From positions 1 through 33,318 of the IMG/VR virus record IMGVR_UViG_3300034272_002264: 33,318 nt of DNA; one strand, given 5' to 3'. Below are positions 13,481 to 19,361 of this stretch, in pieces (the first letter of the stretch is position 1; each line of letters starts with the position of its first letter). Under the pieces are notes generated by a model. The model did not search any database, had not been told where the DNA came from, and was given only the letters and a program-made list of their open reading frames with translations. Source of the DNA: a virus. The position numbers were made by a program, and so were the translations under genes.

Positions 13481-15106
13481 ATGATACCTACCACATTTCA
13501 CCTAGCAAACGACGTAAATCCTCAGGCTAGAGATTTTGCTGTGAGGCAAAAAGACTATGCTGTGTTTTTGCCCAGCATTTCAGCTATCTATGTTCGTCAG
13601 GCCAGCGACTCCAACAGTCGCGTGCCACAAGCACTGCCCGGAGGACTGACAGATCTTGATTTTTTAAATCCCAAGACAAACTTGTTTTACTATCCCGCTG
13701 CCCTTTACAGCAGTGGGCATAGTGTATGGGACATAAATCAAAGCAATCAGCAAGAAAGCATGGTTCAGCAGCGAGATCGTTCCCGTACTGTAATTGTTGG
13801 TGACAGCGGTGGCTATCAAATCGCAACTGGCGTGTTAAAGTGGCCCTGGCAGAAAAAGGCACAGTGGACTGACAGCGATTGGACTAGAGAAAAAGACAAG
13901 ATCCGCTTGCAAATTCTTCGTTGGCTGGAGCACACCACTGACTACAGCATGGTGCTGGATGTGCCTACTGGCAGCTTGCTGAAGTTTGGTTACGATGAGT
14001 TTACTGGAGAGAATCTTCATCCCGGTGTAAAAAACTTTCGTGACTGTTTGACAAGCAGCTTGGAAAATCACGAGTTTTTCATAAAAAACCGTCGTGAAGG
14101 TGCAACCAAGTTCATGAACGTGTTGCAAGGACGTAATCAAGCGGAAGGTGACATTTGGTGGGATGCTGTTAAAGATCTGCCTTTTGAAACTTGGGCATTT
14201 TCCAATGTGCAAGCCAGCAACTTTGCCATCAATCTTAGACGTATTATTATCATGCGAGATCAAGGTTATCTTGAAGGGCGTGATTGGATACACTATCTAG
14301 GTAATGGAAAAATCAAAGCTGGTTGTGCGTTAACCACACTGCAACGTTGCATGCGCAAGTTGATTAACCCCAACGTGACATTGAGTTATGATGCAGCCAG
14401 TCCCTTTGTCATGGTAGCAAAAGGGCATCTGTATCACAGTTGGGTGTGCGATGATCGTGCCATGGCATTTAAAAGTGGAGCTATGCCTGATGACAAACAT
14501 CTAAAAGGCAGCAATCAGTTACTGGAAGCTTGGATAAAAAACCTCAATAAAAAATGGCCTCATAAACCCACTAGCATATCTCAAAAGCTGCCTGTTGGTG
14601 ATATTTGTGTAAAAGGTTATCAAGATCTCCAATACAAAAAAACAGCATTTACACCCAGTGAACTACAGCAGGACAAATACCTGTCAAGCTGGGAAGGCCG
14701 TAACGGTGAAAAGCACTGGTATAGTGCAGCTTATCGAGAATATCTTGACAATCAAAATCGCGGCCTTTGGCATGACGATGTTGAACGTGAATGGCCCGAG
14801 CATGAAAAATATCAAGTAAAATGGCCCAGCAGTTTGGATGGCATGAGTTATGTATTGGGCATGCATCACAATGTCGAGATGCATTTGGATGCTATTATAT
14901 CAGCATGTCATGACCAAGATCTTCCCCTAAGTCAAGCAACACAGTTGGTAACTCCTGATCTACTAGAGTTTGCTCATGGCTTGTGTGAAGAAATTCTAAC
15001 AAGTGAACGTCCCATGGACATAATCAATAAACATGCCAAAATGTTGGGTAGAATTACCGGCATGGATGCTGACAACAAAATACATTTGGACCTCAAGGAC
15101 ATATAA
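13481..15106 (+). CDS. dpdA: DpdA-like DNA 7-deazaguanine transglycosylase (TGT fold)
   Basis: 541 residues with the signatures of the queuine tRNA-ribosyltransferase barrel. These are VGDSGGYQIATG (108-116, the base-recognition Asp loop), VLDVPTG (D160), LQGRNQAEGD (215 on), HYLGNG (271-276) and LSYDAASPF (301-309), where D304 fits the catalytic nucleophile. DpdA enzymes swap guanine in DNA for a 7-deazaguanine; FolE, QueD and QueE genes nearby make the precursor. The extended C-terminal third (from ~330) has no clear motif. No tRNA-type Cys zinc cluster is visible, which suits the DNA-acting branch. The gene overlaps the next by one base (TAATG). No good Shine-Dalgarno is seen; translation probably continues from upstream. 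Confidence 0.8.
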   Translation: MIPTTFHLANDVNPQARDFAVRQKDYAVFLPSISAIYVRQASDSNSRVPQALPGGLTDLDFLNPKTNLFYYPAALYSSGHSVWDINQSNQQESMVQQRDRSRTVIVGDSGGYQIATGVLKWPWQKKAQWTDSDWTREKDKIRLQILRWLEHTTDYSMVLDVPTGSLLKFGYDEFTGENLHPGVKNFRDCLTSSLENHEFFIKNRREGATKFMNVLQGRNQAEGDIWWDAVKDLPFETWAFSNVQASNFAINLRRIIIMRDQGYLEGRDWIHYLGNGKIKAGCALTTLQRCMRKLINPNVTLSYDAASPFVMVAKGHLYHSWVCDDRAMAFKSGAMPDDKHLKGSNQLLEAWIKNLNKKWPHKPTSISQKLPVGDICVKGYQDLQYKKTAFTPSELQQDKYLSSWEGRNGEKHWYSAAYREYLDNQNRGLWHDDVEREWPEHEKYQVKWPSSLDGMSYVLGMHHNVEMHLDAIISACHDQDLPLSQATQLVTPDLLEFAHGLCEEILTSERPMDIINKHAKMLGRITGMDADNKIHLDLKDI

Positions 15107-15498: not shown

Positions 15499-16167
15499 GT
15501 GCGTAAAAGTCAAGAAATTCGTCAGCGTTTGATTGATCAAGGGCGTAGCTTCAACTGCAATGACAACATAAGCGATTTAATTCAACATGGTGAAATGGAT
15601 CAGATTATGCAAGAAGTCACTGATAGTTTTCAGCAAGTTCTAGATAGTTTGGTTATTGACACTGAAAATGATCACAACACACAGGAAACTGCACGTCGTG
15701 TTGCCAAAATGTTTTGTACGGAAGTATTTGCCGGGCGTTATCAAGAAAAGCCTCGTGTAACTGCATTTCCCAATGTTACAAGTTATGATCAGCTTTATGT
15801 AACTGGCCCTATTACTATTCGCAGCACATGCGCCCATCATTTCCAAAACATTCATGGCAAGTGTTATATTGGCGTGTTTCCTGGTAAAAACGTCATTGGT
15901 CTCAGTAAGTTCAATCGTCTAGTTGACTGGCTGGCTAGCAGGCCCACTATCCAAGAAGAACTAACTGTGCAAATAGCTGACTTGATTGAACAGGAAACTC
16001 AAGCTGATGGTATCGCAGTCATGGTTCAAGCTGAACATCATTGCATGACCATGCGAGGAGTCAAGGAACATGAATCGGCAATGACAACAAGTATTATGAG
16101 AGGATGTTTTAGAGAAGATCCTCATCTCAAACAAGAATTTTTTAATGTGGTCAGTAAGATGCCCTAA
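15499..16167 (+). CDS. folE: GTP cyclohydrolase I
   Basis: Makes dihydroneopterin triphosphate from GTP, the first step to 7-deazaguanines (and folate). 222 residues, the usual bacterial length. Zinc ligands are visible: C111 and H114 in STCAHHF, and C182 in EHHCMTMRG. GLSKFNRLVDWLASRPTIQE and the HESAMTTSIMRG block are standard. The start is GTG at 15499 with AAGAAGGA nine bases upstream; no ATG fits. It has a promoter-like element upstream and is followed by queD. Nothing catalytic appears to be missing. In this context it feeds deazaguanine synthesis during infection. Confidence 0.97.
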   Translation: MRKSQEIRQRLIDQGRSFNCNDNISDLIQHGEMDQIMQEVTDSFQQVLDSLVIDTENDHNTQETARRVAKMFCTEVFAGRYQEKPRVTAFPNVTSYDQLYVTGPITIRSTCAHHFQNIHGKCYIGVFPGKNVIGLSKFNRLVDWLASRPTIQEELTVQIADLIEQETQADGIAVMVQAEHHCMTMRGVKEHESAMTTSIMRGCFREDPHLKQEFFNVVSKMP

Positions 16168-16184
16168 AGGCCAAGTGAAAAACT

Positions 16185-16192
16185 TGTAAATA
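16185..16192 (+). promoter_or_regulatory. Late promoter-like box in a hairpin loop before queD
   Basis: TGTAAATA partly matches the late consensus (6 of 8). It lies in the loop of a 6-bp stem (ACTTGT 16182-16187 / ACAAGT 16195-16200) in the 109-base gap after folE. The gap holds no gene; the queD start is at its end with AAAGGGA. Confidence 0.25.
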
Positions 16193-16276
16193 CCACAAGT
16201 GGACTATGACTGTATTCAACCCACTCTAAACATTCTGCGCAGTCATCAAACTCGCTCACAATAAAAGGGACAAGAG

Positions 16277-16756
16277 ATGGCAAAATTTATATCAACTAAA
16301 ACTTACAGGCAAATTGGTCCAGTAGCATATCGACAATGGCGGGCTGATAGTCACTGCAAGCTCCTCCATGGGTACTCACTGAGTTTCCATTTTGAATTTG
16401 AATGCGATACGTTAGATGCACGAAACTGGTGCATGGATTTCGGCGGGCTACGTCCATTAAAAGCTTTACTGGAGGAATGGTTCGATCATACGCTACTTTT
16501 GGCTACAGATGATCCTCAATATGCAGAAATTAAAAAACTAGGCGAACTTGGTCTTGCAAAAATAACTGAAGTTGGGCGCACTGGTTGTGAAGGAATAGCT
16601 GATTTCCTTTACAAGTATGTAAATGGTGTATTTCTGCCTAACTATGGTGTAGAAGAAGCAAAAAGAGTTTGGTGCAGTATGGTTCAAGTTCGTGAGACTG
16701 ATGCTAATATGGCCATGAGAGTGGGCCATCGAAACGATAACGAAGATCTTTTTTGA
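16277..16756 (+). CDS. queD: QueD-like 6-carboxytetrahydropterin synthase, variant metal site
   Basis: Would convert dihydroneopterin triphosphate to 6-carboxytetrahydropterin. 159 residues. C27 in SHCKLLHGY is the expected catalytic Cys, D70-H71 in FDHTLLL matches the catalytic pair, CMDFGGL is the DF motif, and VRETDAN carries the substrate-binding Glu. But the canonical zinc triad (H16, H31, H33 in E. coli) appears as Y18, H31 and Y33 here. H26 beside the Cys may replace one ligand. I recall alphaproteobacterial QueD-like proteins with the same RQWRADSHC..LHGY form, so this is a subfamily and not a decayed gene. AAAAGGGA precedes the start. The next gene begins 12 bases downstream. Confidence 0.85.
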   Translation: MAKFISTKTYRQIGPVAYRQWRADSHCKLLHGYSLSFHFEFECDTLDARNWCMDFGGLRPLKALLEEWFDHTLLLATDDPQYAEIKKLGELGLAKITEVGRTGCEGIADFLYKYVNGVFLPNYGVEEAKRVWCSMVQVRETDANMAMRVGHRNDNEDLF

Positions 16757-16768
16757 AGGTTGGGAATA

Positions 16769-16942
16769 ATGAAAACTTATCAAGCTCAAGTTATTGACCA
16801 AGACGGCAATCTTGCCTTGGTTTTCAGTTTGGAAATGATGCAAGAACTGGGTTGGAATCCTGGTGATGAGATTCAGTGGGAAATAACCGACACTCAAGTT
16901 ATTGTGAAAAAAGTTCATGAGCACAACAACCCTGACAACTAA
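16769..16942 (+). CDS. AbrB/MazE/SpoVT-type small DNA-binding protein
   Basis: 57 residues from ATG 16769, with GAAGG nine bases upstream; an in-frame TTG at 16760 is less likely. The pattern is a first strand, DGNLALVFSLEMMQELGW, NPGDEIQWEI and a final strand TQVIVKKV. This is the swapped-hairpin AbrB/SpoVT fold, with the P-GD turn typical of it. Such proteins bind DNA as dimers and serve as antitoxins or regulators; no toxin gene is adjacent. It may regulate the queD/queE region. A 9-bp hairpin starts inside its stop codon. Confidence 0.65.
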   Translation: MKTYQAQVIDQDGNLALVFSLEMMQELGWNPGDEIQWEITDTQVIVKKVHEHNNPDN

Positions 16943-17345
16943 CGGCAGTAATACTGCCGTTACTTTAAACAACACCTTGCTATCTACTGTTAACTGTGTT
17001 CAAAACTGGAAATACACATATAATATTTCCTATTCTGCCCCTAAAAATATTTTAGAGATAAACGATGCTCAAGGGCAGCCGATATTAAAGATAGATAACA
17101 CAGGTTCGGTGTCATGGCAAGGCAGTGCCAATCAATCTGCTCGCAGATTTGTAAACATGATTCAACATCAGATTGATAGTCAAGTAGTTGGCCCAGCAGC
17201 ACTGCAACGCAGTTACCTGCTGGGCATGGAAAAATGTTTGCAAATGTCACAACAGCTTGATCATGAACTTTTTTGTGCTAAGTTAAAAACAGAAATACAA
17301 TCACGAAGGCAAAAAGTCATGCTGCAAGAAATGTCTGGCAAATAG
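16917..17345 (+). CDS. Hypothetical protein
   Basis: 142 residues, overlapping the AbrB-like gene by 26 bases. The N-terminal ~50 residues are Ser/Thr/Asn-rich strands, the middle (ILEINDAQGQPILKID) is a strand-turn-strand, and the C-terminal half is helical (RFVNMIQHQID, LQMSQQLDHELF). No family is recognised. A strong hairpin (16941-16961) lies within its first codons, so translation from ATG 16917 may be controlled, or the true start may be further in. No good Shine-Dalgarno is visible. Confidence 0.5.
   Translation: MSTTTLTTNGSNTAVTLNNTLLSTVNCVQNWKYTYNISYSAPKNILEINDAQGQPILKIDNTGSVSWQGSANQSARRFVNMIQHQIDSQVVGPAALQRSYLLGMEKCLQMSQQLDHELFCAKLKTEIQSRRQKVMLQEMSGK
16941..16961 (+). other. Strong hairpin at the end of the AbrB-like gene
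   Basis: A perfect 9-bp stem (AACGGCAGT / ACTGCCGTT) with a 3-base loop begins in the stop codon of the AbrB-like gene. Only TTT follows after two bases, so it is a weak terminator at best. It could hide the start region of the overlapping gene or serve as an operator. Confidence 0.45.
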
Positions 17346-17347
17346 AC

Positions 17348-17378
17348 TTGTGATTAAATGTGACTTTTATAATATACT
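17348..17378 (+). promoter_or_regulatory. Promoter-like AT-rich element before the queE remnant
   Basis: A perfect TATAAT (17368-17373) overlaps TATACT (17373-17378). The best upstream box, TTGTGA (17348-17353), is 14 or 19 bases away, so the spacing is poor. It lies 27 bases before the old queE start and probably once drove queE. Confidence 0.4.
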
Positions 17379-17404
17379 AGTATTAACAACAACAGTGAGG
17401 CACT

Positions 17405-17473
17405 ATGTTTGGACGTAATTCTATTGTCGGCGAAAAATATTTCAAAGATGCAGAAAACAAGATTAGTTTTTAG
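17405..17473 (+). pseudogene. 5' remnant of queE cut off by the homing endonuclease insertion
   Basis: This 22-codon frame ([20 protein letters not shown], then SF and stop) keeps its own GTGAGG ribosome-binding site and upstream -10. It matches the first 20 residues of the complete queE that starts at 18477 ([20 protein letters not shown]) at 15 of 20 positions. It therefore looks like the original beginning of queE, separated from its body by about 1 kb of inserted DNA. The bases differ mostly at codon third positions. The remnant may still be translated as a short peptide. Confidence 0.8.
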
Positions 17474-17477
17474 ATCT

Positions 17478-17485
17478 CATAAATA
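17478..17485 (+). promoter_or_regulatory. Late promoter-like box before the homing endonuclease gene
   Basis: CATAAATA matches TATAAATA at 7 of 8 positions and lies 71 bases before the probable start of the GIY-YIG gene, directly before a stem-loop. T4 homing endonuclease genes often combine a late promoter with a leader hairpin. Confidence 0.4.
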
Positions 17486-17534
17486 AGCGTGGTCCGCGAG
17501 ATGTGGAAGTCTCTCCGACCACTCTAAACGCTTA
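17484..17534 (+). other. Stacked stem-loop in the leader of the homing endonuclease gene
   Basis: TAAGCG (17484-17489) pairs with CGCTTA (17529-17534) and TGGTC (17490-17494) with GACCA (17517-17521); GAGA (17498-17501) can pair with TCTC (17512-17515). The structure ends just before the GGGAG ribosome-binding site of the endonuclease gene. It may mark the insert's border or control its expression. Confidence 0.55.
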
Positions 17535-17548
17535 TGGGAGCATTCAGC

Positions 17549-18493
17549 ATGGTTATTTACAATCAATATCCGTCAGGATATTATGTGTACGCTTATATTC
17601 GCAATAAAACTACTAAAAATGGTCATGTAGGAAGTCCATATTATATTGGCAAAGGCAAAGGAGGTAGAGCGTGGAGACCCCATTTGCGGCAAAACGGACA
17701 AGATTTGTGTCCAAAAGATCCTCAGCATATAATCATTATGGCGTCTAACCTATCGGAGGTCGGTGCAGTTGCATTTGAAAGACGATATATTTCCTGGTAT
17801 GGACGAATAGATAAAAAGACAGGAATCTTAAGAAACCTTACAGATGGTGGCGATGGAATTGGAGGGTTTGTGCAATCCACTGCTTCTAACCAAAAGAGGA
17901 GGTTAACTCAATTAGGAATATCTAAACCAAAAATGATTGGTAAAGTAGTTGTATTTGATCAAAAAGATCAAATATCAAAACAAGTTGATTTAGTAGAATA
18001 TAATAACAATCCAAGTCGGTATATCACCAATACAAAAGGCAAAGTTCTTGCATATGATACTTTGGAAAAAATAAATGTGCTGATTGATAAAAATGTGTTT
18101 GACGGATTACGGTATGTAGGGCAAACAAAAAATCTTACAACTGTATTTGATACAATAACTCAAAAATATGTTCAAATCAATCGTAATCTTGCTAAAGAAA
18201 GCAGGTATCAAGGGCCATGCACTGGTAAGATAAATGTTATTAACAAAATAACAGGGGCTAGAACACAGATATTAAAATCTGATTTTGATACAGCAACGCA
18301 TATTAGCTTAGGAAATAAAAAGTATTACTTCAAAGCATTGAATATCAAAAAGAATAAAATCAAAAATATACACATTTATGAATGGGATATTTTGGATCAT
18401 ACTCATTACAACGTCATTGACGTTGACAAACTCCATACTTTAATACAAACTTACTTAACAGTCCATGGAGATGATGATGTTCGGAAAAAATGA
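17549..18493 (+). CDS. GIY-YIG homing endonuclease inserted in queE
   Basis: 314 residues from ATG 17549, chosen because GGGAG lies eight bases upstream; ATG 17534 has none. The N-terminal domain has YVYAYIR and [13 protein letters not shown] (the GIY and YIG strands plus the catalytic Arg), [10 protein letters not shown] (metal-binding Glu) and [10 protein letters not shown] (Asn). About four imperfect repeats of ~35 residues follow, each like GKVxxxD...K......F, which are probably DNA-binding modules as in free-standing T4 Seg-type enzymes. It makes a double-strand break in DNA lacking the gene and is copied in by repair. The gene is clearly more AT-rich than its neighbours, a sign of recent transfer. 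Its last codons overlap the new queE start by 17 bases. Confidence 0.9.
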
Positions 18494-19361
18494 AATTATT
18501 GGAGAGAAATATTTCAAGGATGCTGTAGACAAAATATTTGTTACTAGCGTATTTGGTGTGACACTGCAAGGCGAAGGCCCGTATCGCGGTGAGCCAGCAC
18601 TGTTTGTTCGCCTAGCTAAATGCAATCTTTCTTGTTCGTTTTGCGATACCTTCTTTGATGATGGCGATTGGATGACTGTATCTGATCTAGACACCAAGAT
18701 CAACAAAACCATCTCGGACTATTTCCGTGGTGATGTGCCATTGTGGGCTGACACTGTTTATGGTGGTCCAGGTAGCGATCCTGTCAAAAAGCGCGAAATG
18801 GTGCTGGTGCTTACTGGTGGCGAACCCATGCTGCAAAAGAACATTGTGCCTTTCCTGGAAGCTATGAACCGGCAGTTTGCCAAGACGCAGATTGAAAGCA
18901 ATGGTACTGTTGTTCAAAACATTCCCTCAGAAACTACACTAGTGGTAAGCCCCAAATGCAGTGAGAAGAATGGACAAGCTGTTAAGTATCTTGAGCCTCG
19001 AGCCGAAATGCTTGCACGAGCTGATTGTTTGAAGTTTGTGATGAGTGCTGATGCGGACAGCCCCTACAACAGTGTGCCAGACTGGGCACTGGCATGGCGT
19101 GCGCGAACTGGCAAGCCGGTGTTTGTGAGTCCCATGAACATCTACAACGAGCTGCCTCAAAAATCCAAACAACTGCGAGCTGAGAAGAATCAAATCTCCA
19201 TTGAAGAGCGCAGCACTGTTGACGAGGTCATCAGCTTTTGGCAGGAAGGCTTGCTGAACATGAAGGCCAATCAAACCAATCACGAGTATGCTGGCCGTTA
19301 CTGTGCCACACATGGATTGATTTTAAATTTGCAAATCCATCTCTTTGCTTCATTGGCCTGA
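18477..19361 (+). CDS. queE: 7-carboxy-7-deazaguanine synthase (radical SAM)
   Basis: Converts 6-carboxytetrahydropterin to 7-carboxy-7-deazaguanine. 294 residues from ATG 18477, with GGAG seven bases upstream; earlier in-frame ATGs (18465, 18471, 18474) lie too close to that site. C49, C53 and C56 in CNLSCSFC are the Cx3Cx2C iron-sulfur ligands. [11 protein letters not shown] and LTGGEPML are family motifs, and VSPK follows. About 20 residues precede the conserved core, and that extension is exactly the part duplicated at 17405. The first codons are carried on the inserted DNA and differ from the old copy. The rest of the gene has the base use of its neighbours. No active-site residue is missing, so the gene should work. 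Confidence 0.93.

Follow-up and report, generated by a model that had tools for sequence, protein, structure and literature searches.

A GIY-YIG endonuclease gene and a divergent replacement gene end as a probable homing unit in the 5′ end of phage queE

Introduction

Homing endonucleases are thought to persist in coding genes mainly by way of introns or inteins, or else to lie harmlessly between genes. A third route, in which the cut-off end of a gene is replaced by a linked divergent allele, has been described for one yeast gene (PMC7282813). In these WHO elements of Torulaspora and Lachancea yeasts, the endonuclease gene sits between the complete target gene and a leftover end fragment, homing replaces the gene end next to the endonuclease, and a linked resistant allele has been proposed (PMC7282813). 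Target alleles are 99% identical on one side of the breakpoint and 85% on the other (PMC7282813). The WHO proteins derive from inteins and carry zinc fingers; their target is the 3′ end of FBA1, they operate during meiosis, and their cleavage was shown in vivo (PMC7282813). The seg genes of T4-like phages, situated between intact genes, encode free-standing GIY-YIG enzymes that home without an intron and have distant cut sites (PMC2988022). Endonuclease genes have also inserted inside phage genes, as with mobE in nrdA of phage Aeh1 and mobA in gene 60 of T4, where the gene was split into two pieces that are both in use (PMC2988022). In a literature search of partial coverage, we found no phage example of gene-end-replacing homing.

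Here we analyze a locus in IMG/VR virus record IMGVR_UViG_3300034272_002264, positions 1 to 33,318; this whole stretch of 33,318 bases is referred to as the window, and loci compared with it are given L numbers. On the window a 5′ fragment of queE is followed by a hairpin, a GIY-YIG gene and then a complete queE whose 5′ end is different, so that, as in WHO elements, the endonuclease lies between an end fragment and a complete target gene. In our judgement the endonuclease and the replacement gene end probably form one homing unit, which enters a protein gene without an intron or intein. The locus fits best as a phage counterpart to gene-end-replacing homing, with a second and possibly a third gene affected in the same way.

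Results

Two queE beginnings flank an endonuclease gene

The window genes at 15499-19361 include folE, queD and queE of the preQ0 (7-deazaguanine) pathway, which in phages leads to a DNA modification that guards against restriction (PMC6884629). No DNA match to the region was found in named phages. The features of the locus are as follows.

16917..17345, + strand: 142-aa gene, the syntenic anchor, also upstream of queE in L013, L171, L082 and L083
17346..17404, + strand: original queE leader, with a TATAAT-like box and a ribosome-binding site; its final bases are those of the leader of the uninterrupted queE of L013
17405..17473, + strand: copy 1, read as the left-behind old queE 5′ end; a 22-codon ORF with queE homology to 17461 (codon 19)
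17462..17533, + strand: left junction and 5′ region of the endonuclease gene, with the NATAAATA box (17478-17485) and the hairpin
17489-17494 paired with 17517-17522, + strand: endonuclease-leader hairpin, kept before related GIY-YIG genes with compensatory changes
17534..18493, + strand: GIY-YIG homing endonuclease gene, a 319-codon ORF whose start is probably 17549 and whose final 17 nt overlap queE; nuclease domain at about residues 6-120, putative DNA-binding region at residues 165-308
18467..18470, + strand: queE ribosome-binding site GGAG within the endonuclease gene end, read directly
18477..18563, + strand: copy 2, the apparent replacement queE 5′ end (codons 1-29), closest to L004
18564..19361, + strand: queE core, 97% identical to L003, beginning right at the breakpoint

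The initial annotation had described a 22-codon queE beginning at 17405-17473 that ends in a stop, followed by an AT-rich endonuclease gene and by a second start at 18477 that leads into the full enzyme. All three were found: the homology of copy 1 reaches codon 19 (AAG, ending at 17461), the endonuclease gene has a GC content of 33.7% (46.6% for queE and 44.2% for the window), and the complete queE runs from 18477 to 19361 with its own start and its own ribosome-binding site. Copies 1 and 2 match at 15 of 20 residues, as had been noted (tblastx E 2e-7), and at 41 of their first 57 nucleotide positions. They do differ at codon third bases as had been claimed; the difference extends to the protein, with 5 of the 20 residues changed.

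Endonuclease-free relatives have a single queE 5′ end

A search with QueE gave 80 viral loci. Of the type-A queE loci, 74 lack the endonuclease and have a complete 5′ end, and each of these has a single queE beginning; two 5′ ends occurred only in three near-identical endonuclease-carrying phages, namely the window, L001 and L002. It had been predicted from the window that queE would run unbroken from one start into the core in relatives that lack the insert, and this is seen in L013, where the leader AACAACAGTGAGGCACTATGTTTGGACGTAAT is common with the window and the start leads directly into the core. Both 5′ copies in an endonuclease-free relative would have counted against the same proposal, and such a relative was found at 0 of the 74 loci. 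The counterpart of copy 1 is the 5′ end of L005, which is alike at 53 of 57 nucleotides and at 19 of 19 residues. Because L013 has the same leader and L005 the same first 19 residues, we take copy 1 on sequence comparison to be the old queE 5′ end, still in its original place behind its original leader. The recipient of the window event is matched only in parts, by L005 in these codons, by L013 in the leader and by L003 in the core. The arrangement is identical in L001 and L002, which are contigs from two other metagenomes, and an assembly error was ruled out on this ground. Together with the lack of a two-ended relative among the endonuclease-free loci, these identical contigs argue that the layout is more than chance or misassembly.

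Short remnants and exchanges of queE were also seen elsewhere. At L089:4949-4990, a short remnant of a type-A queE start (MFGKND...) precedes a different, type-B queE, and is a scar of queE replacement. L003 is near-identical to L006 upstream of queE and 99.6% identical to it downstream, but its entire queE (L003:430-1500) has been exchanged and now combines a window-type core with a 5′ end of a third kind.

The new 5′ end belongs to another allele and ends at a mosaic breakpoint

Copy 2 is closest to the 5′ end of L004, a locus without the endonuclease, with which it agrees at 75 of 87 nucleotides, including an extra codon: it reads GVT-LQGEG where L003, L005, L006 and L013 have xT-LQGEG and is one codon longer. 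The window and L003 are 65.5% identical over codons 1-29 and 97% identical from codon 30 on, and the step in identity falls just before an 11-residue stretch common to the QueE relatives compared. A similar step separates L004 from L005 (64% in the 5′ end, 89% after). Among 266 windows along the gene, the 5′ end ranked second lowest in identity for the window and L003, and fifth lowest for L004 and L005. The initial annotation had the insert carry a recoded replacement for the piece it cut off. The replacement stands, but recoding for a purpose was dropped, since nearly the same end occurs in the endonuclease-free L004 (75/87 nt); to judge from this match, the replacement seems to be a natural allele of the ordinary kind that came from another lineage. 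Replacement-like alleles without the endonuclease occur in L004 and L260, and therefore 5′ ends also move without the endonuclease. It is plausible that the replacement end resists the linked enzyme, and the extra codon close to the breakpoint makes an appealing candidate determinant of such resistance.

A further mosaic was noted at the start of folE, where the window (15513-15777) and L001 show about 50 clustered differences in phages that are otherwise nearly identical; this cluster is a separate recombination block.

The inserted gene encodes a GIY-YIG enzyme behind a conserved leader hairpin

Translation of the endonuclease more likely starts at the in-frame ATG at 17549, whose methionine is the first conserved residue. 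In an alignment of five relatives, Y12, Y14, Y32-I33-G34, R40, E77 and N96 are invariant, and a profile of the five relatives matched the solved GIY-YIG domain proteins 9u75/9u7u (E 6e-6). On the strength of the aligned motif and the profile, we assign the window endonuclease to the GIY-YIG type. The Pfam GIY-YIG cut-off was not reached, as the window protein gave no hit and its L171 homologue scored 14 bits vs 22.6; the Pfam model is insensitive for this clade, and the miss therefore lowers the formal call only. Confidence in the predicted models was low (pLDDT 34 for the full-length protein, 68 for the domain), and they had no Foldseek match. The N-terminal part of the endonuclease is common in large phages, the endonuclease is absent from the bacterial and archaeal genomes searched, and in named phages only relatives of the nuclease domain were found.

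A NATAAATA-like box, a hairpin and a ribosome-binding site precede, in this order, the endonuclease genes of the window, L171, L086 and L078 (box and covarying hairpin at window 17478-17522, L171:4475-4520 and L086:6840-6890 on the minus strand). The outer helix stays paired through two-sided changes in five of its six pairs; two of the four leader sequences fold no better than shuffled ones. In T4, a late promoter within such a hairpin delays translation of the endonuclease (PMC2988022), and by analogy a T4-like control by late promoter and translation is possible for the window hairpin.

At L086:5661-6824 (minus strand), a 387-residue GIY-YIG gene with tandem CPHC zinc-finger-like repeats has the same nuclease domain as the window enzyme and a different DNA-binding part, and it adjoins a homologue of a 541-residue gene. 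On the window, that gene (13481-15106) lies beside folE, queD and queE and encodes a DSGGFQ-like motif. The 541-residue protein had no Pfam, PHROGs or NCBIfam match, and by its motif it is a candidate DNA-modifying transglycosylase, DpdA2-like.

Relatives carry the endonuclease directly upstream of queE

The C-terminal region of the endonuclease, which includes the putative DNA-binding part, was found in only four lineages (the window, L171, L082 and L083). In all four it shares the orientation of the queE that it precedes and occupies the same place in the genome, either 0-31 nt upstream of queE or overlapping it, and two types of queE are involved. L171 carries an intact homologue, 58% identical over its length, directly before a queE of a different type, with no queE 5′ fragment beside the endonuclease; L082 and L083 retain only decayed C-terminal pieces in the same place. 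The type of donor that the initial annotation had imagined, with the endonuclease directly upstream of queE, thus exists in intact form in L171 and in decayed form in L082 and L083. Between the window and L171 endonucleases, a dN of 0.35 vs a dS of about 4.0, the latter saturated, indicates selection on the endonuclease protein, in which amino-acid changes are strongly limited.

L001 shows zero differences from the window over 17030-18571 and 27 in the 798-nt core, and L002 shows zero differences over 16531-18926 and 11 in that core. Both difference-free stretches span the fragment, the endonuclease and the replacement end, and the divergence lies to their right. This pattern would fit a recent spread of the unit into related phages, as read from three sequences of one lineage.

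The layout recurs at a second and perhaps a third gene

We compared upstream with downstream sequence for 55 unique endonucleases of the clade, of which 54 were tested, and found three duplicated gene ends. In 318 mismatched control pairs, hits at E<=1e-4 occurred only between endonuclease domains or homologous loci.

The second duplicated end (system 2) belongs to a 129-residue gene whose upstream neighbour has RCC1-like and tail-protein matches. The order of fragment, endonuclease and full gene is present in L249, L250, L254, L256, L258 and L263 (for example, L249:4122-5053 and L250:4925-5976), at least six contigs that come from different metagenomes. The fragment has 15 codons (MTHYVQVLNGEVKQV and variants), the complete gene lies at least 11 nt past the endonuclease, and the enzyme has a DNA-binding part that differs from that of the queE-linked one. 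Close endonuclease-free relatives, with cores 96-98% identical, were available for five loci, and in all five pairs the 5′ end of the relative was 95-98% identical to the fragment and 67-73% identical to the new end. The junction is the codon 15/16 boundary in all six loci. L255, the nearest relative of L256, was rejected as an endonuclease-free phage with the new end, since the last part of the endonuclease gene is present on it and makes it a truncated positive. Between L249 and L250, the fragment, endonuclease and new end are 95-98% alike, whereas the cores are 80% alike, and therefore the unit moved whole across gene backgrounds with its breakpoint at codon 15/16. Across system 2 the fragment varies in step with the endonuclease (Spearman 0.94, exact Mantel p 0.006) and not with the core (Spearman 0.26, p 0.21), a departure from the simplest form of the WHO model. 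Instead of being the recipient's own old end, the fragment may move together with the element, or it may mirror target specificity, each enzyme entering only genes whose 5′ allele it recognises; both readings leave the core of the homing explanation intact.

In system 3 (L217:1436-2328; also L215, L205 and L216), a complete glutaredoxin gene is followed by a GIY-YIG gene, and the last codons of the L217 endonuclease resemble the glutaredoxin 3′ end. An empty glutaredoxin site is present at L202:178-405. Judged by this resemblance, L217 is no more than suggestive of a 3′ version in reverse order. None of ten related GIY-YIG genes in named phages lay beside a duplicated gene end, and we therefore regard most of the family as ordinary.

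Discussion

Comparison of sequences shows a left-behind fragment, a replacement end, a mosaic breakpoint, empty-site relatives, a donor-type relative and recurrence at a second gene. The overall reading of the initial annotation, that an endonuclease split queE and brought a new 5′ end, draws its support from the empty sites and the donor type; the recurrence at other genes and the parallel to the yeast WHO mechanism go beyond that reading. From here we infer cleavage, a cut site, resistance and a role for the fragment as a homology arm. During co-infection, the enzyme would cut a sensitive queE in its 5′ region, at some point from codon 19 to codon 29, and the donor phage would serve as template for repair. 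Pairing on the right side would involve the conserved queE core, and on the left side the donor's queE 5′ fragment and the leader upstream of the endonuclease. The repaired phage would acquire the endonuclease and the donor version of queE codons 1-29, and the recipient's old 5′ end would stay upstream as a short fragment, which could act as the left homology arm in the next round. With its start presumably coupled to the 3′ end of the endonuclease gene, queE would stay complete, and splicing would therefore be unnecessary. The new 5′ end differs in sequence and has one more codon close to the breakpoint; the enzyme probably no longer recognises it. The three queE copies come from one lineage, and at queE itself repeated homing may at most be supposed. 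One may also speculate that 7-deazaguanine in DNA might affect cutting.

Ordinary recombination could have produced such a locus if queE is often swapped, with the endonuclease a passive neighbour and the duplicated 5′ end functionless debris. Exchange of queE without the endonuclease does occur, as in the window-type core of L003 within an L006-type genome; L089 holds the remnant of one queE start before a different queE, and L004 has a replacement-type 5′ end without an endonuclease. We nevertheless consider this account unlikely, since the same order of fragment, endonuclease and full gene recurs at an unrelated gene with an enzyme that has a different DNA-binding part, the layout perhaps appears in reversed orientation at a third gene, the mismatched control pairs matched solely in endonuclease domains or homologous loci, and in L249 and L250 the unit moves whole into different cores.

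Less probable still is that the gene is a free-standing intergenic one of the T4 seg type, that the fragment arose by one illegitimate insertion and that the true target lies elsewhere. Here the insertion and the breakpoint are inside the 5′ end of the target gene, at the same codon boundary in 6/6 loci of system 2, and the putative DNA-binding region always adjoins a queE. These points weigh against what such a view has in its favour, namely that the endonuclease gene is simply intergenic in L171 and the decayed copies, that the ten related named-phage genes are without duplicated gene ends and that T4 free-standing enzymes often cut hundreds of base pairs off (PMC2988022). Interrupted phage genes with endonucleases are often split by introns (PMC10448857), and the insert holds a stable hairpin, so a self-splicing intron or a translational bypass element that joins copy 1 to the core at the level of RNA or protein could be imagined. 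We find this scarcely credible and rejected it: there was no Rfam match to a group I or group II intron core around the endonuclease, in the window or in L171, L250 and L254, the downstream queE is whole and has a start and a ribosome-binding site to itself, and the hairpin belongs to the leader of the endonuclease gene.

Under the favored interpretation, homing with replacement of the gene end, the phage loci resemble WHO elements in that the fragment matches the end of endonuclease-free alleles and the replacement is foreign (L005 and L013 vs L004 for queE; five of five pairs in system 2), and in that the replaced end and the rest of the gene have discordant histories in both systems. Unlike in WHO elements, the phage enzyme is an unrelated protein of the GIY-YIG type, the 5′ end is the one replaced (possibly the 3′ end in L217) and cleavage is presumed. 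As the protein is GIY-YIG and not an intein-derived zinc-finger protein, the locus may work like a WHO element but is none. With the T4 seg genes it shares the nuclease type, the lack of an intron, a place near conserved genes, a late-promoter-like box with a leader hairpin, and apparent co-conversion of neighbouring sequence. It differs from them in lying inside the 5′ end of its presumed target, in leaving a fragment there and in bringing a replacement end. It differs from mobE and mobA in that the cut-off piece of queE is replaced and QueE remains a single chain. HomeR, a man-made, Cas9-based home-and-rescue drive for insects, reportedly supplies the nuclease's target gene with a re-coded working part. 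The phage locus, a natural case in which resistance is presumed, likewise pairs a nuclease with a functional version of the gene end that it would destroy.

We lean towards a general phage class in which one GIY-YIG clade with changeable DNA-binding parts carries, for each target, a divergent replacement of its 5′ or 3′ end. If this holds, natural home-and-rescue elements enter protein-coding genes without an intron or intein and leave mosaic gene ends. The phage case, with an unrelated nuclease and at two, perhaps three, genes, would mean that this route evolved more than once. Its components, a 200-residue enzyme and a 15-codon target end, would make small synthetic test systems for a natural drive, and gene-end replacement would explain the abrupt changes in identity at gene starts in these phages.
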